DNA of 64,000 bases from Straminergon stramineum (taxonomy: Eukaryota > Streptophyta > Bryopsida > Hypnales > Calliergonaceae), in NCBI GenBank assembly GCA_963920665.1, contig OY987265.1, forward strand, positions 27,719,001 to 27,783,000, given 5' to 3'. The notes beneath the pieces were generated by a model that saw only the letters and a list, made by a program, of their open reading frames with translations, was not told where the DNA came from and did not search any database. Each line of letters begins with the position of its first letter. Position 1 is the stretch's first letter. A program made the position numbers and the translations under genes. This document shows positions 2,929 to 62,292 of this stretch, in pieces.

Positions 2929-3128
2929 NNNNNNNNNNNNNNNNNNNNNNNNNNNNNNNNNNNNNNNNNNNNNNNNNNNNNNNNNNNNNNNNNNNNNNNN
3001 NNNNNNNNNNNNNNNNNNNNNNNNNNNNNNNNNNNNNNNNNNNNNNNNNNNNNNNNNNNNNNNNNNNNNNNNNNNNNNNNNNNNNNNNNNNNNNNNNNNN
3101 NNNNNNNNNNNNNNNNNNNNNNNNNNNN
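2929..3128. other. Assembly gap of 200 N
   Basis: Exactly 200 Ns, a conventional placeholder length. The sequence before it (ending 'ctacactagcctt') recurs ending at 5373, and the sequence after it (starting 'ctacaagatttag') recurs starting at 680, so the two sides overlap each other. Confidence 0.99.
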
Positions 3129-38100: not shown

Positions 38101-38200
38101 GGGTTGCTAGCAAGTGAGCCTGTGAGCTTGAGCCCATGAGCCCATGAACGTGAAATTTTTTAGAGAAGATGACCTATGACCGTGGGTTTAGATGTTTAAA
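38101..38200 (+). repeat. MULE A left terminal inverted repeat
   Basis: Starts CAGGGTTGCTAGCAAGTGAG (from 38099), with GAGCCTGTGAGCTTGAGCCC and the conserved GACCTATGACCGTG. It matches the left end of element B at 54176 and the reverse complement of about 53430-53614. Confidence 0.8.
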
Positions 38201-41200
38201 ATTTAAGTGAGATAAAAGTTATTTTCTTGGGAGTATATGACAATATTGTTTTTTAAATTGAAGTTTAGGGTAACACCTCTATATAATCTAATTCCAATGA
38301 ATTATTTAAAGAATAGTTGAAATTTAAAAATGCATGTGAGAAGCGGTTTAGCCATAAAGCACACAAATCTAATCATAAACAAAACCAATACAAAGTAGTT
38401 TGACTCATGAGATATGTCAATCTCATGAGTCTAAGCCCTAGTGGACTCATTAGATGAATCATCGCTACAAGACCAATTTGATGACTCTCCACACTCTAAT
38501 GCTAATCCATCTATAAATTGTAGAACATTAAGTACGTAAGTCTGTCTACGAGATTTTGGTTTAGAACAACCAAAATCTACAAATGCTGATGCCATTTGCT
38601 CTGCATACACAGGTAATTCAAATGGCTTTTGCGGACTAATATGAAGTCTCCGGTTCTCCATGACTTCATCTTGGGCTCTTGGCATTAGTCCACGACAACT
38701 GTAATCAAGGAATAACAAACATTAGACTAAAATAATGAAAGAACAAGAAATTTGTCAAATACACCAAAAAACTAAATTTGAAACAACTTACTTACTATAT
38801 TTTGACTTCCGTGCAAACTTTCGTGGAACAACAATCATGGCATCGGGATCTTGTGTTGTCATAGTTGCAATTGGCGGCTCCGCTATCACCACATGTGATT
38901 CAGTCTTCATCATGGGTTTGAGGAGAGCATCAAATATCTCTTCATCTTCCTCTAGTGCTACAATGTGGCGCCTTGTGCCACGACATGCTATAATTGCCGC
39001 ACCTAGCAAATTCCAAAAGCACAATTATGAATAAAATGGTCAAATTTATTAATTTAAAATGGAGAACACAATAGCATTCTTTTTAAATTCACTAGTGGAT
39101 GCTGTGACATCAAAAACAACATCTCCTTCATCTGTTGTTGCTTCAATTAGGAGGTGAAAAAACCTTGGATCCTTTTGTCGTGCACCTCGCCATGGTTTGG
39201 TACCATTCATTTCCAAATCTCCTTTCGTGGTGAAATTCATGAGGATGTCGTCCTGTCCAATGTCCATACCAGCTTTTACCATTGTCGGAGTGCATCTGAA
39301 AGTAAAATTAGATTTTTCTTTCACTCCAAGGTCCTTCACCATGAGGGTGATCCCAAATTTTTGAGTTTGAAAGCATCCAAACAATAAAGGATCAGAAATG
39401 AATGAAATATAGTATAATGAAATACAACACAAATTTATAAAATTATAAAGCTAACCATGCAAGTATTGTCGAAAGGCGAGGTCAAGTGAAGTCGATTCAT
39501 GCCCATCCATTCTTTCTTCTTCAACATTTGGTATGTCTCGCAAAGTCCCACAAGATTGGCCTTGGAGTCGGTAGAATATGAGTGGATGACAATGAGGCAA
39601 CCATGGTCATGGAGATGCTTTTCTGCAAAAAGAAATGCAGACTGAAGTGCTTCATACTCCTCGTCTGCGTTCCACACTGGTATTGCAGTTGGTGGGGAAG
39701 ATACCCCTGGCACAAGCAAGTTCTCGTGACAATCGACAATGACAAGGTCAACACCAGGCCATCAGTTCATTCTCCCGTGAAATATCCGATCCTTCTTTGT
39801 TGATAACTACCACACAAGAAAATTTTAAATCATAAGTAATTGAGCCACATTAAAATTTGAACACTCAACATGAAAAACATAGCATAACAATGATAAAAAA
39901 TCCATACCTTCTTCAAGAAGTCCATGACCTTGGTATACAAATTGGGGGCCTCTTTCTCCGTGTTCTCTACCACCTCATTGATGGAGACATTTAGAATGAG
40001 CATCTCCACATTGTCTTCATCATCTCCACCTATGATAACGTCGTCAGCCCCATGTAGAATGATTCTCTCGGTCAACTGCATCAACTCAACCTTCCTCTTC
40101 AATCCCATCTAAGAACGGGGTGGCATTTCAGAGGCTTGGTCTATTGTAGATGATGCAGGAATTGCTACATCTCCATCCACCTTCTTCTTACCTTTTCCCT
40201 TTCCCTTCTCTTTCTCCTTCTCTGCAACCTTCTCCAATGCCTTTAATTTCTTCTACACTTCTCTTGTCGCCGCCTTCTCATGCTCTTCCTTTGCTTTATC
40301 AAGCTTCTTCTTATCGGCAACTTGACATCCAGCCATTGCCCTCTCTTTTGCCATTTCATCCATGCCATCAAACTCTTTAGATTGCACGTCCTATACATCC
40401 ATTTTTTGAAGAGTTTCATGTAATCGTTCCTCAGATGGATGAACATACCCTCTTGAGCAATCAAGGTACCAAGCAACACCACTAAGATGTGCCGTGGTCC
40501 ACACTTGGAGATGATTCCCGGTGAACATGAAATTTGGCGAAGTACGGTCCTGCCATGTAGCCAAAAATGGGGGAAGATCCACTCGCGTGATTGCCTTCTT
40601 CGGCAACAACTCATGCTTAAAGTACCTGTGAAAATATATGAACATTAGAGATTCTCAATTTCAACCCTTTTTTATTCTAAAATATAGAAAACAAAATGTT
40701 TTAAAACTCACCAAAAAATCACACGTTTTACCACTTGTCCACCTCCATCCGTGACAGCAAAAGAGTCGGACTTCTTGAAGTTGCCGTTGCCTCTTAAGAT
40801 TGACCCGAACCCGTGATCCCAAATCTTCATCCTCCAACCCTCAATATATTCAGTCAACGTCTCACGTTCTAAAGGAGAGTCTATATCCAAAAGAATGGAG
40901 TCATTCTTGATGACAGTATCAAAGAATTCATTGGCCGCATCTTCCACCTAAATATGAAATACACCATAATTGGGTAAAACACTAAATTATTTGAATTTAA
41001 TAAAATGAGCATGTTGGTAATTGAAATTGAATATTTTAATATAATAAAATCAAAATCAAAATGCTTACCCTAGCATACCATACACATCGATTCAAAAATG
41101 CAGTGAGTTTATCCTCCCCAACTGGTTTTGAAGGGAACTTTCGAGCTTCACAAGACAGTACTTAAAGGTTCCACTACTTCAAAAATTTGACTTTATAGTA

Positions 41201-42632
41201 GGGTGGTGTATTGCATGTGGCCACTAATTGGAGCTTCTCCAAATTCATCTCAGGACTACTATTGGAACTCCAATGTTTCTCCACCTGGGCAACAAAATTT
41301 TATTAGACTACCAAAAAATTAATGCAATGTAAGTAATTAGTCCTTCCAAAATTCAATTACCTCTTTCAAGAACTCTGAGCCATGTGCGGGGTTTGCGACT
41401 ACCAATAATTTCATCATCTTTGCGTTTAATTTGGTAGCCTTCTCCTTTGATGCAGTTCGCATGGCTTTAGCTACTCCTTCATTAGTCTTGTCTTCTTCAG
41501 ATGTAATCTCGTGGTAAGTCCTCATTGCTGCATCACCGGTAGAGGCGATTTCTTGCTTCACTACAATCACATCAAATGAGTTTATTGCCAATGTCAACAA
41601 TCCAACATAATAAACCTTGAATTTGAAATATAAATTCGATTACACTTACCCGAAATACAAATGACGTAAATACATCCGTTGGTATCGAATACCAAGTCTT
41701 ACGGGCACTGTGAGATCCACACTTCTTTACTTCTAATGGTTGTAGCAATTCGTTGAACTTCTCCATAGGTAAAAGACCATACTTTTGTACACAGTAAAGG
41801 GTGTGTACAAGGTTTGTCTTCACGTGAGAGTCCTCTGTTTGCCTGCATATTTCTCAAGTAAATATGAGAATGTTCACATATCCAATGAATAAGTGAGAAT
41901 ATCAATATTCTAGAGCTAATAAAAAATATTGATAATAGATTGTCAAAATTAATTTTAACTTACTTATTTATGTCATGCATGACTTGCATAACAACTTCAA
42001 CACGTCCTTTTGTCTCCAAGATGATTGAATCCATCACATATTGCCATGACATTTCCAATGAGTGCAAACGAGTGATGTGGTTCATCCATGCTCGAAGACG
42101 GTGATTGCCATCACATACAAAGAACTTTAAGTTCTTCATGTGTTGCACCTCTTCATGTGAATCCAAGTATTTTGTGAAGTTGTCGTTCTTTGCATTCCAA
42201 AGAGGCCCCCACTCCTCCTCCTTTGTTGTCCATTCGATGCTTTCGCCTGCCTCGTTTGTAGTAGATACATAGAAAACTGATGACCCTTCACGATAACCAT
42301 GAACAAATTCCTGCTCTAGTTTGACCAAATCGCAAGATAGAGTTGGTCTTACCATTGGCATTGGAAGCATACAGCAAAGGGGGATGTGAAGACGAGTCAA
42401 TGAATTTGGCTTTGCCCTCAAGCTAGCAATAGTTGCCACTGAGTCCACTTTTTGGGAACGGCGAAGTTGATCTTCTGTCATTTTATCTTCCTCCTCGTCA
42501 CCCAATTCTACACATTCCATTTCCTCTCCTTCTTCTTCCCCCTCCTCACCAAGCTCAGGTTGATGGGTGTCATCCATTCTAGGAGTACCTATCACAGAAT
42601 CCACTTTAGGATTTTCTGGAGTAGAGGTGACC

Positions 42633-45600
42633 TGTCATATTGTGATTTGTGCACAATGGTAAGTATTGGCCTAATATTCTATCACATTTTCCAAATTTCA
42701 GTTGACAATATAGAAATCTCATTGATTTTCAAGAATGCACATTTATTGATCATATAGATGAATATAGGCTAATGAATTAATGCTTTAAATCTAGAGATCT
42801 AGTCACTTTCAATGACTTAATATTTATGATTTCCTACTTGTTACATCCTTTCAATCTTAGACTCAAATAGTAAACTCAAAACTGATCCATGGGACTCATT
42901 GTCTAATGTAAACCATCCTCTTCTAGTGTTAGAACTCTCTATTGAAAATACAAGACAATTTTTTTAAAGCTTTTGAAGTTATGTTTGAACTACTCATTTG
43001 TATATCTGAAAAATCCCACAACCTATCAATAGCACCCAATAGATCTTCAAGACTCACCACCATAGGGGTATTTGAAATAGGGATATGGGGAGGAGAAGAA
43101 AAAATCTCTATGCCATCCATTGCTAGAGGGGGACCTTGAGTTTGAAGAAGCTCTTGTGATTCCACCTCAGGCTATAAGATCCAAATCCACAATTACATAA
43201 AAACATAGTGTTAGACAAGTATATAATGAGTAAAATATAATAAAGTTCAACTTCAAGGTTCAAAAATGAATAAAAAATATAATCAATGCGTGTAACTATC
43301 CAAAAGACATTTACAATATGGGGATATCACTATGCTCTTCAAGACTCCCTTCGGAACCGAAGGCCTAACTAACAAGTCTTTGTGGTATCTCCATTTAACA
43401 TATCAAACACTGCTAATGATTGAAGCCCGCATTGGGTTGGTCCTCATTCCTCAATTGTTGTCAATAGACTCGTTTAGTGTAGGACTTCGTGATTGTACAT
43501 GGAGATACTAGTAGTCACCTTAGTGACCAGCTTTGGAACCGAAGGCCCTCTTGAGAGGTCTCTCTGGTATCCCTATAATTCATATACAATATGAACATTT
43601 CTATTGGTTGAAGATTGCGCATTGGATCTACTTTAATTGTCTTTGACTAATTGGTTCATTATAGGAATTTGCATCTCTAAATAGGGATACTAGTGACCTC
43701 TGTTGGGACCTCATTTGGGACCGAAGGCCTTCTTAAGGGGTCCCTCTAGTATCTCTAAAATTCAAGAATAAAAAATTAAAAACTTGAACTTCTAAGGACA
43801 CTTAACCAAACAAGATTCAAGAGTGCTAAAATGTCAAGAATAATATTGATCCTACCAGAAACATCATTTTTGTGACAACAATGGAATTAAAATTCTCATT
43901 AATAAACATTCTTTCTTCTAGATGGCTAGGTCAACTTCACCCTAGCCATGACCTTTACATGAACTAATTCCAAAATAATATAAAGAGCTAAACTACTAAA
44001 AATTTTAATCTACTAGTCTACAACTTGCATCTTCAATTGCCAATTAATCATGATGGACTCTCCTACAATGAGGATCATTGATTGCATATTACTTTGCATG
44101 AAACAAGGATGCCAATTTAGTGTTATAGTGGCCCCTTTAGGACCAAAGGCCTTCTTGGGGTGTTAAATTGATATCCCCCAAGTCTGAAATTTCTCACTCT
44201 AAGTATAGCAAAATTGAAATGAACGGTGAGGACCACATGCATATTACAACAAATGCACAACAACAAATTTTTAGACCCATTACTTCACTCTTATCAAGAA
44301 GCTGAAAAATTAGGTGTACAGTTAGAGTTTGGGGGATACCACATTATAGTTGTGGTACTCCCTTCGGAACCGAAGGCCTCTTGGAAGTTCCCTTTGGTAT
44401 CCCGAAAACAAAAGAATTTGATTGAAAATTTTGAATCCAATCCACATAGTCAAGTTCAAATGGTTGAATAATTGAATACATACATTTAAACCACCATATA
44501 GTTCCAACCTCAACCAACAATGACACTTCAAAAAGAATTTTCTAATTATTATTCCAGCCTCACCAATTATTAATGTTCTTGAGAATCGGCAAGATTTAAG
44601 GAAGCTTAGACTTCTCAAAATCCAAAATTCAAAGAGTCTAATTATGACTACGTTTATAGGGCTCGCTTCTAGATGGTAAAAGTACACTCTTTAAAAGCAC
44701 AAGTGTGGTAATACATTGTTAAACACCAATCTTACCTCTACATCCAAGTCTAGATTTTGTTATTGAAGAAAAGAATATACTCATTCTCCCAATTATTCAA
44801 TTGCCTTACATTGAGATATCTTTAATAGAATTTTCAAGAACTCTATTCTTAAGCTTTAAGCACACATCAGAAGATTGAAAAATGTTGAAAACACATACAA
44901 ATAGTGCTCTAAAATATGAAAATATTCCATTTCCATAATCTAGTTGTCCAATATGTCTCCAACACACATTGAGCTCTAGAAAATACATTTAGAGTCCATT
45001 GGATTAAACATTACACCACATGAGTCCCAAAGTGCCAGAATTTTTTTTAGAATTCACATTGTTACATCAACACTCACTTGAATGCTTAATAATCTAACTT
45101 CCAGTGCCTACAAGTGCTCATTGGGATTGAAATAGGTTTGAACCAAGATGGAATTGAGTAAAAGCATTATTAATTACTTAAGTGTAATTGGGTCCCAAAT
45201 GTAAATTCTTATCTTCTTTTGATCATTTCATTCTCCATTAATCAAGTTGGGTTCATCAATACTCATCACTAACTTTTCCAATCAACGACTAACTAAACAG
45301 AGACTAGATTACATGAATATAATTTCAACTATGCAAATGCAAAATTATGTACTTGTACATATTGTTGAATAGCATTCTCGTACTTACTTGCCTGTAACAA
45401 GTTCCTTACTCCCCTCTTTCTGTTTGAACTAGTTGAGCCTAGCAAAATCCAATTGTGCTTAAAAAAATAGTTGGAACTAATATTAAAATAGATCAAACAA
45501 GGCAAGAACAACTGTGGTATATTCTTTTGGCTAGCACGGGATCTTCTTCTAAGTTTTCGACAAGTAGCAATACTCTGTGTGCGTGTTGAGAATCATGCTT

Positions 45601-47773
45601 TATAAATGGCAAAGTTTTGAATTAGAGCACTTGTATCCTTTAGCCTATCTTCCATTAATTCTACACAAAAAGTGCAAGATTCCAAATTTATAGTGACATG
45701 ACTCTTGCACACTGTCCCGAAACGTATATACCAATTCACATCTCAGAGTCTACCTTCGGGACCGAAGACACTCTCGCAAGGCCCTTACGAAATCCCCCAA
45801 AACTAAAACTAAAACTAATTAAAACGAGAAATCAACAGTGAATTGCTTCAAAATTCACTAGTGTTGTTCCCGAGATTTGTTTCAAGTTAGTGTTACTACA
45901 ATTCATGTTCCTAGTACTAGCAACTTAAACTATAGACACACGAATCAATTTACTACCTTGCTCCATACCAGTTTCTTGAAAACTTTGGGAAGAAAGGACT
46001 CACAGTGTTTTCTCTTTGGCGCTTGGTTCCCTACTCTTGCTCTTGGGCCTTCCCCTTGCTATGTGTGGTCCTCATGACTGGAACTGGTTCTTGATTCTGC
46101 ACAATATTGTACAAAGAAACAATTCAAAATAAAAAATTCAAAATCAACTGAGACTCGGAATCAAGGTATTGCAAACAGAGATGTGGAGAAAGGACGCGAT
46201 GGTGAACAGACAAGAAGGCAAGGGTGCAAAGTCAAAGACGCATGCGAAGAAGCCGCGCGCCAACCTTCAATGACGAGCAGAAATCTCGAGAACAGCGCTG
46301 AGCCCAAATCTCAGGAACAACACCAAGTAGATGGTTGCACAACATGCGGCCATTCAAATCCCTAAGTTTCGTAAAATCTAGGGCACTATAGATCAAAAGT
46401 CTAGGGTTTCAGTTTGTATTCACGAGAAGGAATTTTAAAAAGGAAATCCAATCTCCTAGGCTTGGTGGATACAAGGCTCCTTTTGATATTTTTGTAATTC
46501 AAGCAAACTTATTAGTGCAAATAACTCTTAATACCAATAAATTATTTTGAAGATTTTTATTAAGTGCAAAGTAATATTTTTTGGAGCTTTTTAGCAACAA
46601 TTGGATTTTTTCTTAAACTTTTATTGAATGAAGTATTACAAATGAAAAAATGACTCTTGAATTTCTTTCCAAAAATCTCCAAAAAATTCTAGATTTTTCG
46701 AAAAGTATATTGAATTTATAAATAAAAATGTCATGATTCCTTGGAGATTTCTAAATTCAATTACAAGAAACATAATTTAGAGTCATACATAGCCAAACAA
46801 AATTCACACAAAAAATATTATTAATTTTTATTGGAAGTTTTGTTGAGTCTTATTAGGATGCAAGTATATATAGAGCATGGCTAATTGATACAAAAGATTC
46901 TAAAAAAAGATTCCAATAATAGGATTAATAGCCATAGAAAAGTACCAAAATATACCAAAATGTCTCTTGACCATGAAATATCTAATTGACCAAAGGTAGA
47001 CCTACGACTATTGACACACTTCCTATGTCAAAGATGACCATTCAAGGTGAGTCTATTTTTAGTTGTAGACTACCTTATCTTTTCAACTTTGAAAGTTTCT
47101 AAAATAATTTTAGAGCATTGTAAAATTACAATACCACTTGGGTTTCATTTATATTGAGTTCACTTTAAAATCTCATCAAACATTTTTTTTACTTGACTTT
47201 TAAGATAGTGAAACCAAGAAAAACAATTGATTTTGGGTGTTCCTATTTTATTGTTTCTTTGCAAATAAGGGCTTAAAATTCTGTCAAATTAATTTGTTTT
47301 GTATTTTTGGTTGAATAGAAAACTGAATGCATTTGTGGAATTCAAAGATGCAACTTCAAGACATTGATATGCATTCCTTATTTTAAAGAATTTGAATCTA
47401 AAATATAATAGTATATTTTCTTTCATACAATCATTTCCTAAAATACTTTTCTAATCTACTAATATTTTCAATAAGATATCACTAGAAATAATATATTTGC
47501 TAATTATCACTTCCCAAACACTGTACCCAACTATGTAAAACAAATGCAGAGGAAGTCTAATATTGATTTCAAAACAAAGTTAAGCGGTTTTAGAAAGTAC
47601 TAGCCATTACATGTATAATGCTAGGAATATCCCACAATGATTCCTAAACAATGTTAGTTGATTGGAAGTTACAAAAAATTTTAAATGCCTCAGAAGTAAA
47701 TACAATACATGAAATTAGTAAAGGTAGGTAAGTGATGGACTTAGCAAGGTGAAGTAGTTAGAAGAACTTACAT
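42633..47773. other. Long intron-rich interval of element A with dispersed hairpin cassettes
   Basis: Mostly AT-rich. It holds one or two short minus-strand exons (43172-43062; about 46100-46012, with a TAG before GTKRQRE) and six copies of a palindrome-containing cassette (separate entry). The other short ORFs (44226-44988, 45329-45511, 45877-46077, 46183-46365) have no recognisable domain. Confidence 0.5.
43321..45790 (+). repeat. Six copies of a palindromic cassette (CCTTCGGAACCGAAGG type)
   Basis: Palindrome cores lie at 43348-43363, 43531-43545, 43713-43727, 44134-44149, 44361-44376 and 45753-45768. The exact core CCTTCGG-AA-CCGAAGG is present twice and the others differ by 1-4 bases. 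Downstream each has a version of 'CCTCTTGAGAGGTCYCTCTGGTATCCC', and upstream most have a matching GGGATAC(T), so the whole cassette (about 90 bp) can form a stem with the palindrome as an inner stem. The first three are spaced about 183 bp as a tandem repeat and the rest are dispersed. None was seen in element B. Confidence 0.8.
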
Positions 47774-48081
47774 TTGTAGTCTGTAGCATTTCTTCTTGCC
47801 AAAAACCAATGAGTTTCCCCTTGCTCTCCGTTGCCTCTTGTTGAAGCATCTCTAAGGTGTTCCGAGAAGTGTCCAAAGTTTCTTCACGCTCTTGTCTACC
47901 AAAGCAAAGAACCTTGCAAGTGTCTCCAGGACTAGATTGCCTACTCTTTGAAGCTAATTTTTTACCTTTAATTCTAGGTCTCTTCAATGCCCTCGGTGAA
48001 GAAAAACAAAGACTTATTCCTACGCTTTTTCCTCGTACTATTATCACACACACTTGCTACGCTCTAATTCTCTAAAAGCAT

Positions 48082-48726
48082 GAAAACTAGCAAACTTCAC
48101 AATAAACTGTGAGGGTCATCTTAGAATATAGAACATTATATAGCACTCTCACAAGTATGACATACAGTAATTGCGCTATAAAGGAAGTTTGGAGAACCAC
48201 TTAGCACTTGGTGCAGTTATAAAAACAATTGAGTGAGTCTTTGACATGACTTAACCACTTTTCCTCACTTCTTCTATTCAAATCCATGTTGAGGGTTTCC
48301 TCTTTAATTTTTGTCATCACGTACCTAGATAATTTTAGTCTCCATCTTGTTAAGAATAGCCGTCAAAAAATGCTCCAACTTGTATACATGACCTTTCAAT
48401 CATGCTAGTGACGACTCATTATTCAATGATGTGGATCCATCTCTAATATAGCCTTCAATCTATTTAAGAAGATTTCTTGTATTTAATAATCTTTTGACAC
48501 ATGCTAGCACAACAATTTGAATTTGGAACTCTTAAAGATCAATTTGAATTCAAATTCACTAGTCTATTTAATTGCTATTGTCTGTAATTGTACTCCAAAT
48601 GCAATTGAGAAACGTCTCTAATGCTCATAATGCTTTCAATTTCCAAATACCATATATGGTTCAACATTTCTAAACTTTATCACTCTTCTAAATTTCATTG
48701 TCTATAGTCTTCTTTAGTATTTTGAG
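48082..48726. promoter_or_regulatory. Divergent intergenic region of MULE A
   Basis: About 645 bp between the two divergent start codons (methyltransferase-like gene at 48081 minus, transposase at 48727 plus). AT-rich, with no exact TATA box that I would single out. The equivalent spacer in element B is 61679-62292 (614 bp), a similar length, which supports both chosen starts and a shared bidirectional promoter region. Confidence 0.5.
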
Positions 48727-51700
48727 ATGGCATCTATTAGAGCAGACGGGCATGAAGTGCCATTGGTGTTCCCTTTAAACCAAGAAGGGCTAGCTAGAGT
48801 GTCCACTCACTTGCTCCATGTTCGTTTTCGATTTGTAGAGTCATCCATCTATGTTGAAGAAGAGTTGAAGTCAGAGAGCTTGGAATTGAAGGAGTCGATA
48901 CCTATGTTGAAGTCCATTGAGGAAGAGGGACATTGTTGGTATCTTCATGAAGGTAGTTTTAGAGCTTATGGATTGCCTCTATATCTCCTTGTAGCTTCCA
49001 CTGAGATCCGTAGTCGTCAATCTGATACATCCACAGTAGACATGCCATATGTGCCTCCACTATTGTCTAACAATCTTGTATCAAATGATGATGACCACGT
49101 TGTGTCAAATAGCATACTATGTTTCGTGAAGAAAGAGATTCTAGAACCTATCATTCAATTGTCAAGTGAATCAGAAGGAGAGTCTCCAAAATCTACCATC
49201 TTTTAAACAAAGTTTCTCTTCTCCAATAGTTGGGGATGTGAAGCCTGTTTGTACTTCTACAATTGGCACTCCATCTTGTAGTTCTGCAAATTCAAACTTC
49301 TCTCGACCCCCATTGCACCCAAATCCAGTTGATCGAGTGTCCATCCTAGATTGCTTGAAAAGACTTTCTTTTGTGCATCGTTCTAGGAACGAATTATCTA
49401 CAATCAATTTTGAAGGCATGCAACACCATCAATTACAATTTCTACCTCCAATATTCAATGGAGATGTCATGTTTGAGTTGCCTCCATGTCGGTCATCAGC
49501 TTCTTCATCAGCTGCGAGGAACTTGGAGGGAATGGACAAGTGGTATGATGGACACCCATGGTGCAAACTTGTAACGACCAACATTCACAACAATGACCAC
49601 TTGAAGTTTAGGAAGTCATATTGTGCAGGCCATCTTGCTTGTACAAATCACGATTGTGATTACTTGAAGAGATCTTCAAAAAGAAACGAAACGGAGTGGA
49701 TTGGTAGTACAACCTATCCATTTTTAATAGGCGATTGTGCTCCCAGAGATTCTATTCTCGTGTGTAAGGTTTGCAAAACCCCTCCTATTTGTTTGAATGT
49801 ATGTGATGCTAGGATCTACTATTGCTATGGCAACAATTCCAAAATGACTAGAGCTGCTATTCATTTTGGAGATCACATACATCCTATAGCCAAAGGTATG
49901 TGCCGAGATTCTGTAGAGACTATCTCTAGTCTAATTGCAGAGGAGGTGGCCAAAACACCTATGGCCACCAACTCTGCAATTGCTCTAGCTGCAAGTAAAC
50001 AATTTTTAAGCAACTATCTTTTCCACAACAAAGAAGGACCCAAGGAGATGCTACGGGGTGATCAATTAGATGAGGTCATGGTCACTTCCAGTATTTGAGC
50101 AATCCAAATATACACAACATAATTTCATCCTTTCGCTCAAGCAACCAGGGAGGTGTTATCGACAACATCATGACCATGAAGAAGGACTCAAAATTTGAGT
50201 ACATACACGACAGCATCTTCCCTGGCCAAGGCAAGGAAAAGGTATACATATTCAAGATGTTGACCGAGGGACCGGGTAGCAGGGTAGACCTAGTGAAGTG
50301 CATGCAACCTGGAGGGGACCTTAAAAACGCGTGGGTCATGTTTGACCACGTGAAGCACGTAAAGGAATGGACAACAATGGCATGCCACGTGTATGACCCT
50401 AGTTACAAGAAGGTGATGACTATTGCAGTGTGTGATATGCAGTCTGAAGATACGGAGATCCAAGTGCAGTTCTGGAAGTGCTTAAATGCAGTCATGTCTC
50501 GATGCGGGGTTGATCATCCAAACTTCAAAGGCTTCATGGCAGATAGTGCCATGGCCAATTGGAATGCAGTTCGTATTGTTTATGGCACTGCTTCTGCAGA
50601 AGACAAAATGGTGCAACGTGAAAGGACATGTTTGTTGCATTGGAGTAGTTCTCTTCAAAAACACACTCAAAAACACATCAAGGAAGATTTTCAGCATCAA
50701 CACACTCGACTTTGCAAACAGTACAAAGATTCGACAACTATGGAGGAGGTAGAGACATGTTACCTTGCCATTCGATCATGGTGGCTTTCATCTAGGGCTG
50801 CTACAAAAGATGCTCTTCATCATTTGAACCATTGGCTTGCATTCTAGCATTTCCGCTATAGGCAATGGGGCGACTTTATGCAAATGGTAAGTCTAATTTT
50901 TTATTTTTTATTTCATTAAATTATAATATTATACTAAAATATATTTTATTTTTTCATTATATGTTATTTTTTTCATTTCTTTTGTGTTGTGGTAAGATGA
51001 TGAAAATATTTGTGAAAACATCTAGAATGTAAAATACGAGTAGGTCTTCCTAAAACATCTTTTGATCCTAAAAGGTGTTTTGGAAAGATCTATAAGTATA
51101 TAGGATTTTCACATCATTTGTTCTTGGATATGAAATTAGAATTTATCATTTTATATGAAGTTGTAGATTGTATTTGTATATTGAAATGGGAATATCAAAT
51201 TGTTTTACAAGATTTGAGTTTGGAGGAGATGGCGGACATGCCCTCTTGCAACTTGTCAGAAACCATTCACAACAAGTGGCTGCAGATGTCCGGAAATTGA
51301 GGGAACAATTTGTTTGATGCCACTTGCAACGATAGTATTCGCGCATGGATGCAAATGACAAACTATCGGGCATATTTGAAGGGCCATGCTTCTGGATCTG
51401 GTCCATCGAAGGGGGAGTTGAAGTTGCGGGCTGCAAGGCGTAGTGGAGATCCCAAGAAGATTGCAGAGGCACTAAATACCTTACCTAGGTCTGAGGATGT
51501 TTGGACTCGTATTCCTCATTTGGAAGGGGAGGAGGTCTTTGGAAGTACAAAGAGAAAATTGGATCTTCCTATTGGCTTGGAAGGAGACTCACATCGCCCA
51601 AACAAAGTGAATTTTTCCCAACGTCGAGTTCGGATGCGATCCACAAGGGCAGAAGGAGAGTCTTCCAAAAGCGTGGAACTCCCAAAGCAAACAAATGCAA

Positions 51701-52602
51701 AAGGGCTTCATGTGACAATAGCCTTGGAGAGTAATTGTGATACATCAAAGTGGCATATAGCAAGGATCAATCACAAATCCAACAATAGATGTCAAGCTCA
51801 ACAACGTGGATCAAACATGAAGTGCACAGCCAAAATCTCAAAGGGACCAAAGGGAAGACCTGCTCCAACTTATCGTGGGAGAAAAGAAGACTATGGTACT
51901 CATAAGGAAGTGGTGATTGACTTTTGGTTTTGTTGGGATGATATTGAACGATGTGTCAAAGGAACAAAGCGAAAATGGGTCATTGATTGGCTAGAAGTTC
52001 CAAAGGTGTGGCCTGTTTTGATAGGGACGAATCTAGATAGAGAAGAGACATTGATGCTGCAACATGTTGGCTTTTGTCTACAAGAACGACTTGCAATGTC
52101 TCCACGTCGTCTCTTCACATTATCAAAGATATTCGAGACAGTTTTGTATGATCAATCGCCACCTCCCAACCCAGATGTGTATTCAACTATGAGGAATAAC
52201 AAAACCATCCGTCAGCTTGCAAACGCACCTACAATTGAACAACAAAATAAGTGGGAGAGTGCAGGGAATATCAAAGGGACGATCTTGGGCGTCACCTTGC
52301 TTCCCTTTCCAGGCCTCGGAGCCATAGTATCTTTGGAGACTAGATCAATGCCAAACATGAACGTCTACCGAATTACAATGGGCATGTTTCCAGCTTGTAC
52401 ATGCCCATACTTTGTGAACATGGTTGTCTCTGCTATAGGAGGATGTCAACAATATGTGAACTGTAAGCATTTGTACTACCTTGTTAGGTCTTTTTGCAAA
52501 ATGGACATTTGTGAGGACAAGTTCATTCATGCACCTAGTTACAGCTTCAATGAATTGAAGCTTCTCCCCGTTCGATCTGGGATCATAAATTTCTTGGAAT
52601 AA
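48727..52602 (+). pseudogene. Mutator-like (MULE) transposase of element A: WRKY/GCM1-like finger, DDE core, SWIM finger
   Basis: ATG 48727 (MASIRADGHEVPLVFP). An N-terminal domain of about 160 residues ends in SSESEGES. The frame then moves by +1 (49150-49205), also seen in element B. Next comes a WRKY/GCM1-like zinc finger (DGHPWCKL, FRKSYC, CTNHDC, then AIHFGDHIH; about 49540-49885). A 1-base deletion near 50082, relative to B (EVMDRFQYLSS), breaks the frame again. The MULE DDE region follows (VMFDHVKHVKEW with D at 50344; FMADSAMANW with D at 50542; CLLHW at 50629). TAG at 50845 interrupts LAF*HFRYRQWGDF, then a donor GTAAGT at 50887 and an intron to about 51212-51226. The second exon has TGA at 51298 (GN*GNNLF) and ends with a SWIM finger (ACTCPYF ... 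VNCKHLYYL, about 52390-52475) before the stop at 52600. Order and motifs match autonomous MULE transposases. It is inactive. Confidence 0.85.
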
Positions 52603-53614
52603 GCATAGACCAAAACTAGGGGTAGTACATGAGCATCATAATACTTATGAGGAATCAAACATGCAAAGCTTCTAATCATATGTAGCAGACCAAATATTTG
52701 CCTTCATTATGTATTTACCTTTGTCAATTCAATCATTGAAGTAAAGGGACAAAGTATTCATGGAACCTTTTACCTTGATATTGAATATAGGAAGAATGTT
52801 GGTCCAAAGACTATTATGAGTTAATAAAGAGTTTGTTAGAGGTATTTGATCTTGTTAACTTTCAAGGACATGGAAAACAAGGTCTATCCTTATTGCCTAC
52901 TTTTGGAAGTAGACTCTATATCCAAAAACTCACACTAATAACTAGTAATTAATAATTAAAATCCTATAACCATTTTTCTTTCTTTTTTTAGTAGATTTTT
53001 TGATGACTTGCACATTATTTTGTGATTTGGGGGTGGGGGGGGTGGGGAATCACTCCATTAGGTTGGAGTATATCTACAAGAGGTCAATGAGATTGAAATT
53101 TGATGGTCATTCAAATATTGTGAGGCTACTAATTATGCCATTGTTCTTTATCCCTATTCTAAGGTAAATGACAATTGAATAGATAGGTCTAGTATAGTTG
53201 TAGTGGAGGCTTGTTATTTTCCAATCTTTATTTTATGAGCCTTGTATTGTAGGTATTTTATTGCTTTGTAGTGAATTTCTCTAATTGATTACATATTTAA
53301 AATTTAGTGGGCCAAATGAAGTCTTCATGTAATTGTATAGAACTTTAATAAAATTCTTCTAAAGAGAATAATAATTACAAGCCAAAATCCCCCAAAAAAC
53401 AATACCACATGGTCATAGGGCTATAATGGAAATCACGGTCATAGGTCTCAAATTTTACTATAAATAGTAAGTTTTTTCTATTTTTATAAATAAATAATAA
53501 TAAATCTAAATAAACCCTAAAATCTAAAATAAAGTTCATGTTTGGGGCTCTAGGCTCATAGGCTCCACGCTCAAGGCTCTCAAGCTCGCCGCTCTAGGCT
53601 CGCTTGCTAGCGTC
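52603..53614. other. Right non-coding arm and terminal inverted repeat of MULE A
   Basis: AT-rich. It includes a G-run stretch at 53029-53047 (G5-T-G8-T-G4) that could form a G-quadruplex, then the right terminal repeat: 'cacggtcataggtc' near 53434 and a GAGCC/GGCTC-rich end (about 53545-53614) in which 'aggctc' words are repeated. Confidence 0.65.
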
Positions 53615-54177
53615 GTTGAGCTATGATGGGTGATCTCAAGAAACAAAATTTTCTTCTAATTTCAAGCCTTATTATCTTGCAATTTGTGAAGTCAAAGTTC
53701 TAGAAATTTTTCCAACACATTCCAAATGTTTGTCTTGAACTTTTTCCCATTTGGATTTCAAATAAAAGTTTCTTCATTGCATAAGAAATCATTAAAAAAA
53801 GACTAGTGTATTGCCAATTCACTTATCTTCTGTGCATTGCAAAGTGATTTAGTATAAGCTAGACTCCATATTTGTTTTTGAAACTTTTCATAAGTGGACC
53901 CAACATAATTTACTTATAAATGGTCAAAATATTCCTATTTGTGTAGAGGGATCAAAGTCTACTAACCTTGTTTTGTAGGAGTGAAAAAAAAATCTTTCTC
54001 ATTCGAACATTATAACCTTTCACTTCCCGTAGGCAAATGGGCTGAAATTTTTTCACTAATTGTTTTAGTAGTCTAATATACTTTTGTATTCCTATAAAAA
54101 AAATTCTTAATTTTGGACAATATACTAAAAATGGAAGTTTTTGAGAATTTCTCTAGAAAAAACACCTTTAGTCCTCA
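53615..54177. other. Spacer between MULE A and MULE B
   Basis: About 560 bp of AT-rich sequence without ORFs or recognised repeats, ending 'tttagtcct' before the B terminus. Confidence 0.5.
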
Positions 54178-57100
54178 GGGTTGCTAGTATGTAAGCCTGT
54201 GAGCAGGAAATTTTTTTGTGTGAAAAAATGGTTGAAGGACTTATGACCGTGGACATGAGAAAGTAAAAAGGGTAAAGAATGTAGAATTTATTTCGCAAAA
54301 TTCAAAGCGCTAACCCCTTTATTTGATAGAAGGGTTTTTTGGAACAAAATGTATTCCACATAGATGAAATTCGTGTAGTAGGAAATAAGAATTAGAGGAA
54401 CGCATGTCCAAGATATAGCCATAAAACACACAAATCCAATCATAATAGAGAACAATACACAATAGCACGACTCATGAGATATGTCAATTTCATGAGTCTA
54501 AGTTGTAGTGCAGTCGGTGGCGGATTCAGAAGACTTGGATGAATCTGAAGACTCTCTACCCTCAAATGTAGACCCATCTATGAACTGTAAGACATTTAGA
54601 GCATATGTGTCTTTACGGTGTTTTGGTTTGGAACAACCAAAATCCACAAAGGTTGTTGCCATCTGGTTGGCATAGACTGGAAGCTCGTATGTCTTCTCCA
54701 AACTATATAGAAGACTTTGCTTCTTCATCATTGGATCAGGTGACATCAATCTTTGATGACTGCAAACAAAAATGGCACCATGTTAGAGTTTTGAAAAGTA
54801 GAAGGCATCATGCATAAAGAGAATTAAAAAAGTGCCTACTTACTTACTCAATTTTCCCTTCCGAATGAATTTGCGAGGCACCATGGGCATGGCATCCGGA
54901 TCTTGCGAAATTGCAATAGTTGGAGGCGGTGGCGTCACTTCCATGGTAGTAGTGGACTTCCGCATGGGTTTGGGTATGGCTTTGAAGATGTCTTTGTTCT
55001 CCTCCAAAGCTACAATGTGTTGGCCCATGCCACGACAAGCGACAATGGATGCACCTATAGGCACGGAAATATAAAAATATAATATGAGAGACTTAAATTG
55101 TAGTTTGGTTACAATAGGGAGGTAGAGTAGTATAATTGAATATTGACTTGTGGATGCGGTGTAGTCAAGAATCAGATCTCTTGGGACATTGGTAGCTTCA
55201 AGGAGGATTTGAAAGAACCGTGGATCTTTTTCCCGAGCCCCACACTAGGGCTTCCCGTCATCCATGGCCATGTCATTTGGATGGGTGTAGTTCATCACCA
55301 TGTCGTCCCGTGCAATGTCAACACCAGCCTTCACCATCGTGGTAGTGCACTTGAAAGCGAAATTGGATTTCCCTTTCGTGCCCAAGTCCTTCACCACCAA
55401 GGTGATTCCAAATTTTTGTGTCTGCACAATCATCCAAAATAGGTGTAGAATCATGAGCAATGCGATGAAAGCAATGCATGTGAAATTGCCATTTGGAATT
55501 GGAGAAATGGAATGCAATTTACCGTCTTGGTTTTGTCAATGGCCAAGGTCAAGTGCATGCGGTTCATCCCCATCCACTCCTTCTTCTTCACCATGTCATA
55601 AGTTTCACACAACCCTGCAATATCCGACTTCGCTTTGGCACTCCAGGAATGGAAGACTATGATGCAGCCATGGTCTTAGAGATGATTCAAAGCAAAGCTG
55701 AAGGCCGACTACAAAGCTTCATCTCCCACGTCCTCGTTCCAATCCGGCACCTCATGTGGCGGAGAAGACAGTCCAGGCATGGACAAGTTCTCCAGGCAAT
55801 CGAAGAACATGACATCCACCCCTGGCCTAGCTTTAGGGACACCATGGAACATGGATGGTTTCCCCGCTAACACCTGCCAAGGAATAGTGCAATCTATAAT
55901 GACAATAAATGAACTCAAAGTACAACCATTTGAATGAGAACTTATGACCATATTTTCAAATCCAAAGAGACATGCATACCTTGTTCAAGAAGTCCACGAC
56001 TTCTTTGTACCATGTCTTGGTCTCGGACTCCATGTCATCCACGAGGTCGTCAATGGAGATGTTGAGAATTAGATTCTCAGATGTGTCCAACTCGTTGTCA
56101 CTCAGAACGATTGCTTTTGTCACATGAGTGATGACCTCCTCTGTGAGCTATGAGAGGGTGGCCTTCCTCTTCACTCCACTTTGCGATCCGACTTGTAGCT
56201 CGGAGCCTTGATCCACTGTGGAGGATGTTGGAACTTGGATGTCACCCTCAGTCTTCTTCTTCCCTTTGGCCTTGGCCTTTTCTTCTTTCTCCATCTCCTT
56301 CTCCTTCTCCTTCTCCGCCATCTTGGCAAGTCTCTCCACTTCCTTCTTCTCCTTGGCGGTGAGGACTTGAAAACGGGCCTCCTTTTTTCGGTCATTGGCT
56401 TCCCTCCTCGCAATGGCCTTCCTCTTTTGCCTGTTTGTCATTCTTGCGAACTCGTCCACATTCAAGTCTAGGGCCCCTTTGCCATCCAACGATGCTCGTA
56501 GTTGCACCTCGAACGGATGAGTGAATGCCAGTGCACAATCCAAGTACCATGCTCCTCCACTAAGGTGAGCCGTGGTAAACGTGCGTAGTTGGTTTGTTGA
56601 GAACATGTAGTCCCCTGAGCTACGGTCCAACCATGACGCTAGGAAGGGAGGCAAGTCTTTCCTTTCGATGGCACCCTTCGCTTCGAGCTCATACTTGAAA
56701 TAGCTATGGAAAGAAGAATCAATCATTCTAGGCAATTAGAGACATGACTACAATAATGTCTACGAGCTCAACACATGCAATTGAGTTTCACAACCATCCA
56801 CATTCCATCACATTCCATCTGACCGAAGGGTTTGTTCTCAAGGGTTTTAACATGCACACATCAGAATTTGAAGAAATGACTTGTTGCCAAACTGATTCCA
56901 ATCTGATAGGTCTAGAAACATACTGGTAGAGAACCCTCCTAACCACCAAGTTGGACCCCTCAGAATTCGTAAAGGAATCCCCCTTCTTGAAATAATTTCC
57001 TCCTTTCAGGTAAGGATGGAATCCTTGGTCCCAGATCTTCCTCCTCCATCCCTCGATGTACTCTTGCAAGGTTTCCGGGTGGAGCGGGAACTTCATGTAG

Positions 57101-59615
57101 ATCTTGATGTTGTCTTGTCTAACGACCGCCTCGAAGTACTCCACTGCGGCATCTTCGAGCTTCACGAATAGATGATCCCAATAATTAGTTTCAATCCATT
57201 GTGAAGAATAAATAGACATTTCAAATTGACACATGTTGTAATCGATTGTCATAACGAAACCGTGGAAATCAAAAAATGAAGTTGGCTAAGGCACTTACCC
57301 TCGCAAACCAGACACACTTGTTTAAGAAAGGGCCAAGGTGTGTTTCAGAGATTGGCTTGGCTGGGAATTTCCTCACATCACGAGATGGGATGGAGGAGTT
57401 CCACCACTGCAAGAACTTCACCTTGTGCTCTGCCGTGGTGTTGCACGTGGCCACCATTTGCAATTTTTCCAGTGTCATCTCTGGCACCTTATTGGAGCTC
57501 CAATGCCTCTCCACCTGCAGTACCATGAATGAATTGAGTGATGTTTATACAGGCAGATCCGAACCTAGATACTTTTCTGGGTTTAGGTTTTGATAAACAT
57601 GAGGACTCACCTCTTCAAGGAAGCCCGCCCCATGAGCGGGATTGGCCACTGTCAGGAACTTGATCATTTTCACATATAGCTTCATGTTTTTTTCCTTGGC
57701 CCCTACCCTCATGGCATGAGCTGCTCCTTCAGCACTCTTTTCATCAACTGGTGTTGTCTCGTGGCATCTTCGAAGCGCCGCATCTGCTGCTTGTGCAATT
57801 TCTTGCTGCGGAGTCTCAAGAGTATATTGTGAGGAAATTGGATGGGCAAGAAGCACAAGAACACCAAAGAAGATTCCAATTGAGTACTTCACGTATATAG
57901 AGAATGTGTATCTCACCCTGAAGACGAATGAGGTGAAGACCTCAGCCAGCATGGTGTACCATGTCTTCCTCGATGGCATTGCCACACATTTTTTCTTCTC
58001 CGATGGCCTGAGCATGTCATTGAACCTTTCCATTGGCAGTAAGCCATACTTTTGCGCCTGGTACAGAGTATGTACTAGGTTTGTCTTCACATGGGAGTCC
58101 TCCGTAGATCTACAGAGTGGTATAAAGTTCATGCTTTGAGTACATCATTTTACAAGTGTACTGAAACATGAGATTCAGGTTTGAAACTCAGAATGAAATA
58201 ATAGTGGGATTTGCGACCTTACTTGTTGATGTCGTGCATGACCTACATGACAATCTCAATTTTGCCTTTGGTGTCCAAAACAATGCTGTCCACCGCAAAG
58301 TGCCAATCGGGATTTGTGGAATACATTCTGGAGATGACATTCATCTAGGCCAGGCGTCGGTGGTTTCCGTCGCATACGAAGAACTTCAAGTTCTTGAGGA
58401 ATTTCAGTGCAGGTTATGAGTCCACGTACTCCTCGAATGTAGCATTCTTTTCCTTCTAGAGAGGGTCCCATTCATCCATTTCTTGTGTTGTGAACTGTGA
58501 CGTCTCGCTCGCCTCATTCGTGGTGGAAACGTAGAAGACTGTTGCCCCATCACGATATCCACATGTAAACTCTTGCTCAAGAAATTGCACGTCACATGAG
58601 AGAGTTGGTTGCACCATTGGCATAGCGACAAGCTGGCAAAGAGGAATCGGAAATCAGAACATGTGTTCTGGCTTCATCCTCAACGCATTGATGGTGGAGA
58701 CGGAGTCTACTTTCTACAGCCTCCGTAGGTCATCCTCCAACAAGTCTTTCTCCTCTTCATCTAGCATATCCTCCTCTAGTGGGTGTCCTTCTTCTACTCC
58801 GATTTCGGGTTGGGTAGTATCATCGGTTCCTGGTGTCTCCACAATTCTATCATCTTGAGTTACATTCAGAGGCGACACATCCATTTGCCAAGGCAACCAC
58901 GAAATAGGATGACCAAATAGGCATGGATAGGAATAAATGTGCATGAGATATAGGAAAGCCAAACTCCATGGCAATGCACCCAACGCATCACTTGTATGAC
59001 CAATTGAAACATCACTTGTAATAAAATTTCGAAAGATGTTCAAAATAGGGTTTCCTCTAAGGTCACACCTAGCATACACTATACTTTGAAACTATAAATG
59101 ACATCAAGTCTAGTCAACCCTCAAGAATCTCAACATCACTATCTGAATCCAAGCTCAGAAGAATGATGACCTCTCCATGCCTACCTACACTATCGGTACA
59201 ATTACATTCCTCAAATGAGGGACTAACGATGGACATGGACGTCTGTGGCTCTGAGCTATATTCGGTATCAGAACTCTTAGAGGAAAACTCCAACCGCATG
59301 CGTTTGCAAGTGTATCCTCCAATGAGGTGATCGGGCCAATTGGAATTCCGACTAAGCTTCGAGTCTTGAGAAGCCCTAGGTGGAAGAGAAGCACCATTTA
59401 TAATATTTTGAGCCCTTACCAAGTCCTCCTCCTCGCCCCCTTCGTCTTCAGAGTCATTTGATACATTGATGTCTTCATCCGCGGGAGTTTTTGGCTCGGA
59501 TTGCTCTCCATCATCTTCCTCTGCGCCAGGCATCACTGACAGCTCCAAGCTAGACGGTAATCCGGTAGGTCCTTCAAAAATCTGAAACCAAAATGATGTA
59601 AGATGAGATCAACTG

Positions 59616-60228
59616 CCAAGGTCAAGTTGGATCCAATTGAAGCCCTAGGCGTGTCTGCTCCACCCCCCAAAAGTGGGACCCCATACTTTTCACATTGAAA
59701 TTCCCATGACACGCACAGTTGTCAAAACCAAAACTAAAAGGGAAGGACCAACTCGTGTAGACAGAGGGGTGGACTCGCATTCTTGTGAATCATAATCGGG
59801 ACAAGGCAGAGCCTGTGGCCCGGGGCACCACGAGGCCATCACCGCCACTATGGCCCCTCTCACCCGCTCCCTGTGAGTTCGCAATGGCTCATGAAAATCC
59901 TCGGGTCCCAATTTTTGGGGGTGGAGCGGGCACCTACCAAGGTCAAGTCGGATCCGACTGAACCCCTAGGCGTGTCTGTTCCACCCCCCAAAAGTGGGAC
60001 CCCATACTTTTCACATTGAAATTCCCACGACACGCATAGTTGTCAAAACCAAAACTAAAAGGGAAGGACCAACTCACGCAGACAGAGGGGTGGACTCGCA
60101 TTCTTGTGAATCGTAATCGGGACAAGGCAAAGCCCGGGGCCTGGGGCATCGCGAGGCCATCACCGCCACTATGGCCCCTCTCACTCGCTCCCTGTGAGTT
60201 CGCAACGGCTCACGAAAATCCTCGGGGT
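59616..60228 (+). repeat. Tandem duplication of a ~292-bp block, 321-bp period
   Basis: 59616-59908 ('ccaaggtcaagttggatcc' to 'gaaaatcctcggg') repeats at 59937-60228 with roughly 94% identity by eye. The differences are largely C/T or G/A (agcctgtgg/agcccgggg, tcatgaaaa/tcacgaaaa). In unit 1 the block is bounded by an inverted pair: GCTCCACCCCCCAAAAGTGG near 59659 against CCAATTTTTGGGGGTGGAGC ending near 59926. A small inverted-repeat element, tandemly duplicated, is therefore possible. No CDS is supported. Confidence 0.8.
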
Positions 60229-60299
60229 CTTGAAAATGCCTTGGATTCAAAATTCTGCAATCAAGGTTTCAATGTGAATTTTGTGCTTAGGGATTGGGC

Positions 60300-60780
60300 A
60301 TGAATTCGAACCTTCTGCTGGCCACCGAGCTTGCGTGTTCGCAACGTTGGCGTCGCTTCCACGTCCTTCACGTCATCTTTTGCACAGCTTCATGTTGCTC
60401 GCTTCCCTAGCGCACTCTCCTCCCTCTACACTCGTGTCATGGTGGACGCCCTATGAGAATTTGGCAACAACTCACACACTCCTTCACATTTGCAATTCTA
60501 AATTTTGAGAGGGGGAAGGCGGCCGCGCCCAAGAGGTGGGGCTCGGCGATGTGCGGGGGGTGGAGAGCATCGATCGGGGTGACGATGAGTTGGTAGGGAT
60601 CCGAAATTAGAAAGTGCAGGGAGGTAGGGATGGATGCCCAAGCCATGGCCTGCATCAGCGAGGCTGAGGATTGGAGTGGGAAATTTGAACTGGCGGGGAA
60701 GGCGGGTGGTCCGGCCGATCCTCTCTGCCTTCTTTTAATTTCCATATCCTTCCAGAACCAGCGGCACTGGATTCACAAAA
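60300..60780. other. GC-rich segment in MULE B, possible captured fragment
   Basis: About 480 bp, rich in CG dinucleotides (GGCGGCCGCGCCC, GATCGGGGTGACG), between AT-rich stretches and absent from element A. A 102-codon frame is open on the minus strand (60745-60437), but the high GC content could explain it. Gene-fragment capture is common in Mutator-like elements; the source cannot be named. Confidence 0.35.
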
Positions 60781-61364
60781 GGCATGAACTTTTGAAAATG
60801 ACAACCTCATCGAGAACGTGAATGACGAAATCTAGCCATGCAAGACTTTCGCCATGCACGCGGTGGTCACGACAACGAAGTCACCCGCGGGGCTTTGCTT
60901 GGGCTTGGCCGCACTCAGACCAGACAAAGGACAACATTTTTAATTTGCGTATCTTATGTACATTAAAGGTCTAGGATGTTTCTATCTTTGTAAATTCTAC
61001 AAAGTAATCCAATTGTTGATCTTATTCCTTTATTTTTTATATGCCAAATTTCAGGGACGAAGAGCATGATTCCTAACCGTAAAAACGGCCAGCTACTTTT
61101 GTACAATCAAAGTCTATGTTTCTTCCCAAAATCCTTCCTCTTGCGATGGAGACTAATCACTTGTCTCTCTTAGGGGATCCACGGTTTGCCCCAAACTGAA
61201 TTTTATTGATAATTGAGTATCCCTATGGGATCTTGTGTTTTCCTAATTGTTCAATTTTACAAACGCATTGGACACATTGATTCCCGGAATCCTAAACCTC
61301 CTTTGCACAAGAAAAGAGCAAAGAATGTCAATTGGAACATTGAAATAGCAAAAATGGAATTAGT
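60781..61364. other. Intron-like interval of the MULE B methyltransferase-like gene
   Basis: AT-rich sequence between the first exon's donor (61370-61365) and the GC-rich block. No coding feature is supported. Confidence 0.4.
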
Positions 61365-61678
61365 ACTCACAATGGCACTGGAGTTGTCTTCTTCTTGCTT
61401 TTGGTTTACACTTGATTCCTCTAGCATGGGCTGACTTCCAACTACGTTTTTTGGTGTAGGGCCTTCCTCTCCAGTCTCCACTACATCCTCCACCAGCAAA
61501 GCGAAGGGACTTCCTCGGCTCTCCAAGTGTAGACTGAGAAGTCCTAGACACTACCTTCTTCTTGTTCATCTTGGACTTCTTCAGAGCCGAGGAGGAGGAG
61601 GAAAACAAAACTACGACGCCTCTTTCTACTCCTCACATCAATGGGCACAAGTTCAGCTCCTAGGGATTCTCCAAGCAT

Positions 61679-62292
61679 AAGGGCAAAGAACTCTACATGA
61701 AACCTCCCTCTCCTCTCTACAACCGATGAGATGATGACCAATTAAAATGCACATGGCGATGTTGAGATACAAAACATATGCACTTGTTTTAGCGCTTTGG
61801 CCTAGGTGTACTACATGGATTTGATAATTTCCTTTGTGCTCCTCGGGCAGCCAAGCATATTTACTCCACTTCATGGTAGAGCGTTTAATGTGCCGCTTAG
61901 AGGCAATTAAATAGGTGGGGGATTTCTAGATCAACCGACGCAATTATTTTTGCTCTTCTTTCAATGCATGGGTGACGGATGTAGTGCCTCCACTTAATGA
62001 AAGGCAACAAATAAATGATGAGGCCGTTTTAGTTTTCCCAAGGTCACGGACATGGAATAAAGGACTACTTGGACGGCGGGCCATAATGGGCAAATACCTC
62101 TAGCGGTGGATTTTATCACTCAAATAAGATGATTAATTATCATACCTACCCTAATTAATGTATTGCTCACCCAAATTTAAATTCCAAAATGAAAGGCTAC
62201 TACATAAGGCCATTTGAATTTGGATGCCTTAACTGATCCCAAAGTTTCATTGCCTCTCAACGTCCCTCAGCTCCTCCTTGTGTTCCACGAGG
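61679..62292. promoter_or_regulatory. Divergent intergenic region of MULE B
   Basis: 614 bp between the divergent ATGs at 61678 (minus) and 62293 (plus), close in length to the 645 bp of element A. Confidence 0.45.

Follow-up and report, generated by a model that had tools for sequence, protein, structure and literature searches.

A gene with predicted ParB-like and methyltransferase-like domains beside transposases in a contig of Straminergon stramineum

Introduction

What might a gene that appears to join a ParB-like domain to a DNA-methyltransferase-like domain be doing beside a transposase in what is probably a plant genome? The question is raised by a stretch of 64,000 nucleotides (nt) from Straminergon stramineum (assembly GCA_963920665.1, contig OY987265.1, positions 27,719,001-27,783,000 of the forward strand), hereafter the window, in which an initial annotation had described, in each of two elements termed A and B, a conserved multi-exon gene on the minus strand next to a transposase. 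Both copies were found where that annotation had placed them. Window coordinates are used for all features; the element of copy A would lie wholly inside the window, and that of copy B is truncated where the window stops. The gene is very probably the accessory second gene of a large DNA transposon family, encoding a ParB/Srx fold and a permuted amino-methyltransferase fold, and on balance its product is best explained as an accessory or anti-silencing protein that binds DNA and whose methyltransferase domain is a pseudo-enzyme.

A multi-exon gene in two decayed copies

The gene occupies 42631-38431 in copy A and 58863-54498 in copy B, both on the minus strand, and in each copy at least ten exons join into a single frame for a protein of about 1,100 amino acids (aa) or more:

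41964-42631, minus: A exon 1, acidic leader and ParB/Srx-type domain with DGNHR; 582 relatives
41650-41842, minus: A exon 2 (TEDSHVKTNL...), from tblastn and splicing; present in relative P0052
41361-41555, minus: A exon 3, from tblastn and splicing
41069-41284, minus: A exon 4, from tblastn and splicing; two premature stops
40712-40947, minus: A exon 5, from tblastn and splicing
39908-40625, minus: A exon 6, WTTAHLSG region plus a linker rich in lysine and glutamate; three premature stops
39456-39806, minus: A exon 7, motif IV half of the predicted methyltransferase fold, DCHEN replacing DPPY; one premature stop
39093-39366, minus: A exon 8, middle of the predicted methyltransferase fold and initial part of motif I
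38792-39002, minus: A exon 9, remainder of motif I (TASTSA) and motif II-like HIVALEED
38431-38698, minus: A exon 10, ending at the terminal TAG
58223-58863, minus: B exon 1, ParB/Srx-type domain; six premature stops
57917-58109, minus: B exon 2
57611-57805, minus: B exon 3
57299-57514, minus: B exon 4
56924-57159, minus: B exon 5
55980-56703, minus: B exon 6; one premature stop
55523-55873, minus: B exon 7, motif IV half, DCLEN; two premature stops
55148-55421, minus: B exon 8; one premature stop
54844-55054, minus: B exon 9, TASTSA...HIVALEEN
54498-54759, minus: B exon 10, ending at the terminal TAG

From first to last, the exons measure 668, 193, 195, 216, 236, 718, 351, 274, 211 and 268 nt in A, and 641, 193, 195, 216, 236, 724, 351, 274, 211 and 262 nt in B. 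The conserved exon structure described earlier is thus recovered, with equal lengths in seven of ten exons and the same phase at all nine junctions, an agreement that is partly circular, since after comparison by tblastn and base-by-base reading the junctions were picked by eye with A read against B. Introns follow the GT...AG rule in 17 of 18 cases, the exception being intron 7 of A, which ends in CAA where B has CAG. The spliced frame holds seven stops in A and eleven in B including the terminal one (69/77 and 52/52 in the other frames), that is, six and ten premature stops apart from the terminal TAG. Amino-acid identity between the copies is 55% over 1,092 aligned codons, at whose first, second and third positions they differ 362, 258 and 657 times, a pattern showing that the gene evolved as a protein, long under selection before the copies died. 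Synonymous sites are saturated (proportion of differences pS 0.78, against pN 0.28 at nonsynonymous sites). Both copies are dead, old and broken.

The first exon junction is borne out by relatives of exon 1: among the 15 printed, eight stop at H(D/N)INK, which is the end of exon 1, and four continue past it, one of which (P0052) reads through the intron into exon 2. A full-length query from copy A found no relative at E 0.001 among 7,240 candidates, probably because these were limited to 0.55-1.75 times the query length and because such genes are called exon by exon; exon-sized queries, from exons 1 and 7, did retrieve relatives. Beyond the terminal TAG the frame stays open for 27 codons that are similar in A and B (tblastn), and the TAG may be read through.

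Premature stops are biased to TAG (four of six in A, at 41176-39762; seven of ten in B, at 58716-55245), which might come from CAG or TGG codons decaying within methylated repeats of a plant. Upstream of exon 1 lie minus-strand frames at 59608-59114 in B and 43171-42929 in A, which may contain 5' exons of the gene; the frame in A has no tblastn match in the B region.

A ParB/Srx-type domain in the first exon

The peptides singled out by the initial annotation (FVCDGNHR, DCxEN and TASTS...HIVALEE) are located where it had claimed, and profile and structure checks of the kind that it proposed recovered both a ParB fold and a permuted amino-methyltransferase fold. For exon 1, public protein predictions contain 582 relatives; the 120 listed, whose properties are described here, share at most 64% identity, carry no Pfam domain, are named at most 'hypothetical protein' and are open in that exon. 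Aligned with copy A they give 121 rows, from which a structure model usable from about residue 50 to 224 was built. Its top Foldseek matches in the PDB are Noc and ParB, with E 6.3e-3 at best, and in a second look 29 of 31 entries were named as members of the ParB superfamily; the remaining two were hypothetical or unnamed proteins. Among viral structure models a giant-virus protein of unknown function ranks first (E 4.1e-4), after which come mostly ParB-like proteins of phages; rank 10 is taken by a phage 'DNA methylase'. The GxxR-type phosphate motif (P motif) is present as an exact DGNHR in 110 of the 121 rows, and Ala-Trp follows two residues past it in 112.

Sequence searches returned less: no Pfam model exceeded its cut-off (DUF1015 and DndB were sub-threshold only), nothing significant emerged among solved structures (best E 0.23, a coronavirus protein), and pattern scans for this exon family over viral contigs (98 stretches) and prokaryote genomes (18) turned up no relative. 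As modelled, the exon has a ParB/Srx fold, as had been claimed; individual E-values and Z are moderate, and the assignment rests on the near-unanimous superfamily of the matches and not on single E-values.

A permuted methyltransferase-type domain with altered motifs

The C-terminal piece of A matches PHROG methyltransferases at E 8.9e-6, 1.5e-4 and 6.1e-4, that of B only at 0.13, and the match of A to PF01555 (N6_N4_Mtase) falls under the Pfam cut-off (18.8 vs 26.7 bits). Against a comparison profile built from YhdJ and 14 loci chosen by eye from 50 fetched viral loci, A and B alone reach a probability of 88, and together with 17 trimmed exon-7 relatives a probability of 94 and a score of 53.6, above all 60 column shuffles (maximum 19.4). 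The exon-7 half alone gives a probability of 28.6 and a score of 28.1, again above all 60 shuffles (best 21.0). With the untrimmed alignment the probability drops to 2.6, owing, we think, to intron tails of the relatives. The ParB alignment, run as a negative control, gives 0.2, as expected. The exon 7 model has a mean pLDDT (predicted local distance difference test) of 78.2; its best Foldseek match is CcrM (E 5.2e-4), and a second look placed an unrelated protein on top. Among solved structures, sequence search pointed to DpnA-type adenine methyltransferases (E 0.1).

A forced whole-length alignment lays DC(H/L)EN onto DPPY and DxTASTSA onto DPFxGSGT, so that motif IV precedes motif I, the permuted amino-methyltransferase arrangement. 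As judged from these profiles and models, the C-terminus is a permuted amino-methyltransferase fold, in line with the earlier reading of the exons. In active members of the class, motif IV reads (D/N/S)PP(Y/F/W) and motif I is rich in glycine. Copy A and the 17 exon-7 relatives make up 18 rows covering motif IV (P0134, in which the motif is not covered, being excluded): none has (D/N/S)PP(Y/F/W) and all 18, including relatives with open exons, have D(C/M/L)xE(N/G). The glycine-rich DPFxGSGT is likewise missing, being DVTASTSA and DYTASTSA in the two copies. Since both motifs depart from the active signatures, methylation is doubtful and, on sequence grounds, a pseudo-methyltransferase appears likelier than an active enzyme. 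A caveat on this reading is that motif I is seen only in two dead copies.

A C5-type catalytic cysteine in DC(Q/P)EN was also considered and rejected, the residue being M or L in four of the 18 rows.

A conserved block at the stop codon

Each copy ends in a similar segment:

38349-38431, minus: conserved 83-bp block at and after the A stop codon, with a 12-bp-arm inverted repeat at 38402-38431
54416-54498, minus: matching block at the B stop codon, inverted repeat at 54469-54498 with one mismatch

Ungapped, the blocks are identical at 70 of 83 positions (84%), which exceeds all 1,102 same-size windows of the equal-length exons (best 77%); gap-fitted introns show 63-86% identity over aligned letters, a figure not comparable with the ungapped one. 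The block holds GACTCATGAGAT-N6-ATCTCATGAGTC in A, with 11 of 12 positions paired in B, and the repeat in A is the sole perfect 12-bp inverted repeat with a spacer of 3-10 in the window, counted with exclusion of N and of arms with fewer than four different bases. A predicted RNA hairpin after the stop is strong in A (z -3.6) and not in B (z -0.9). The inverted repeat may be a target of the protein, a 3' RNA signal, or both.

The carrier transposon

The transposases and the candidate ends of the elements are as follows:

48718-52602, plus: A transposase frames, head-to-head with the accessory gene; SWIM-type CxC...CxH at 52396
62290-64000, plus: start of a related B transposase, ending at the window end and containing a 200-N gap
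38099-38127, plus: candidate left terminal repeat of A, three mismatches to 54176-54204
53596-53611, minus: candidate right terminal repeat of A, 15/16 to 38106-38121 inverted
54176-54204, plus: candidate left terminal repeat of B

That the gene travels with the transposase, as the initial annotation held, agrees with the presence in both copies of a related transposase (62% identity over 312 aa), each head-to-head with the accessory gene. The terminal inverted repeats claimed for A are candidates. The left sides of A and B have a 29-bp segment in common, with three mismatches, 16 bp of which recur inverted to the right of A with one mismatch, and the candidate ends take the form GCTAGCAAG(T/C)GAGCCT. 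The shuffle control bears not on the 16-mer itself but on the best gapped inverted match of the left segment. That match adjoins the 16-mer and scores 33, a value reached by 3 of 300 shuffles (maximum 40). No long terminal inverted repeat was found, nor any convincing 8-11 bp target-site duplication with matching ends. If the candidate ends hold, the element of copy A would span about 38.1-53.6 kb (about 15 kb), with B starting about 0.6 kb later.

The label of Mutator-like element (MULE) is likewise tentative. The C-terminus of the transposase bears a CxC-x19-CxH SWIM-type signature, and the spacing of its acidic residues is one that we take to be MULE-like. The pieces searched, all outside 50848-51300, match no Pfam transposase model, MULE and SWIM included, even at E 10, so the label rests on reading and not on a match. 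The carrier could instead be Sola-1, EnSpm/CACTA or an undescribed superfamily, an appreciable possibility that is compatible with the explanation preferred here: besides the missing Pfam match and target-site duplication, the published carrier of a comparable gene is Sola-1, and red algal giant EnSpm elements with accessory genes are mentioned in the accessible part of that literature. Against it speak the acidic spacing and the SWIM-type signature, SWIM being listed for several MULE groups in the available part of PMC6446971.

Several further observations concern the same region. Between the accessory gene and the transposase of B lie two tandem 296-nt copies, 93% identical, at a spacing of 321 (59610-60226). 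The N-terminal part of the transposase keeps IIxLSSESEGESP in both copies (49126-49187; 62947-63008), a stretch that presumably resembles a SUMO-interacting motif, and the minus-strand frame at 59608-59114 terminates in VIILLSLDSDSDVEIL, which is similar to it. Two exact runs of 200 N, at 2929-3128 and 62565-62764 (the latter within the first transposase frame of B), are probably assembly gaps. Elsewhere in the window, an EnSpm/CACTA-type element at 15609-17495 matches Transposase_21 (tnp2) at 16665-17495 (E 4.6e-58), and its part at 15609-16046 gives a transposase-associated domain below threshold. At 29751-31358 there is a series of plus-strand frames (244, 146 and 144 aa), the first without a Pfam match, which is perhaps a gag-like gene. 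Rfam and tRNA scans of the whole window were empty.

Comparison with known systems

According to the available part of PMC12477816, the Ectocarpus element Sola1-1_Ec32 encodes, on the strand opposite the transposase, a 1104-aa protein with a ParB domain and a DNA-methyltransferase domain, the latter predicted to make N4-methylcytosine (4mC) or N6-methyladenine (6mA); green and red algal transposons with a like pairing are cited there, along with a study from 2011 and Petroll et al. (2025). As far as that description goes, the resemblance is close: in both cases a giant DNA transposon has, opposite its transposase, a second gene for about 1,100 aa with a ParB-like and an N4/N6-type DNA methyltransferase domain. 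As with the algal accessory proteins, both domains lie in one protein, opposite the transposase, in a DNA transposon. Unlike the Ectocarpus protein, whose carrier is Sola-1, ours has degenerate catalytic motifs, a probable plant host and, beside it, a transposase with a SWIM-type signature whose superfamily is unproven; the proteins are likened by description, not by sequence.

Phage genes for ParB-methyltransferase fusions lack introns. The accessory gene has them, and its relatives are absent from the viral and prokaryote pattern scans, which sets it apart from the prokaryotic fusions, at least as the latter are described in the accessible part of PMC12704722, which reports frequent fusion of the ParB-CTPase fold of phages to N6_N4 methyltransferases; the likeness lies in the same two folds within a single protein of mobile elements. 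The main text of that paper contains neither 'plant' nor 'transpos'. The pairing, which the initial annotation called familiar from phages and prokaryotic mobile elements, is not alien to transposons of eukaryotes either, as the algal cases show. A literature search, made largely outside subscription journals, found no ParB-methyltransferase pairing reported in a land plant or a MULE.

VANDAL elements are of the MULE type, and we know of no domain common to their VANC protein and the accessory protein. In the available part of PMC10398659, VANC of Arabidopsis VANDAL is an anti-silencing protein that binds noncoding regions of its own family. The accessory protein resembles it in being the accessory protein of a plant transposon, and differs in that each copy here has a single short inverted repeat where the VANC targets are tandem repeats. 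It also resembles mudrB of MuDR, the second gene of a Mutator-type element (PMC6446971); no ParB or methyltransferase domain is mentioned for mudrB in the available part of that source, and the word methyltransferase is absent from its main text. The ParB-methyltransferase combination is not new; the variant lies in the probable plant host, the other transposase and the degenerate catalytic motifs.

Proposed role and competing explanations

For the preferred DNA-binding accessory or anti-silencing protein we put forward a mechanism tentatively. The ParB-type domain would load the protein onto the DNA of the element, perhaps with a nucleotide as the switch. The methyltransferase-type domain, having lost methyl transfer, would be a module for binding DNA or a partner. 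By analogy with VANC, the protein would act as an accessory factor that helps its own family to counter silencing or to transpose, with the conserved inverted repeat at the stop codon as a possible target or RNA-level signal. A bolder version, of a widespread unannotated plant transposon family whose ParB-fold clamp with a pseudo-methyltransferase loads at the inverted repeat as a self-targeted anti-silencing or transposition factor, like a eukaryotic parS-ParB system, we hold to be unlikely.

The main rival is an active self-methylating factor, which would bind the element through its ParB domain and mark it with 6mA or 4mC through the methyltransferase domain, a role proposed for the Ectocarpus protein and, as a hypothesis, in the initial annotation. 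The fold does belong to a class of amino-methyltransferase enzymes, and the Ectocarpus protein, as described in part, has the same two domains at nearly the same length with a predicted 4mC/6mA activity, points that are opposed by D(C/M/L)xE(N/G) instead of DPPY in every covering row and by TASTS instead of a glycine-rich motif I in both copies; we regard self-methylation as rather improbable. Still less probable is a host ParB-methyltransferase gene family, captured by or adjoining the transposon and not part of it. The 582 exon-1 relatives are of unknown neighbourhood, the 120 listed are open in that exon, and plant transposons capture host sequence (PMC13317346, in the part available), all of which would suit a host gene; copies of saturated divergence nevertheless retain the same head-to-head layout with related transposases, and relatives so numerous and diverse would point rather to a repeat family. 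Open frames arising by chance in repetitive DNA, which the premature stops of both copies might suggest, are refuted by the codon-position pattern, the exon phases and the hundreds of relatives.

Implications

The pseudo-methyltransferase reading extends a phage-style domain pairing to a probable plant genome, with catalysis seemingly given up and with hundreds of relatives in public data. Should the protein prove to oppose silencing or to direct transposition, it would join VANC as an element-encoded epigenetic factor of a new kind, with a putative nucleotide switch and a DNA target that are amenable to direct biochemistry.

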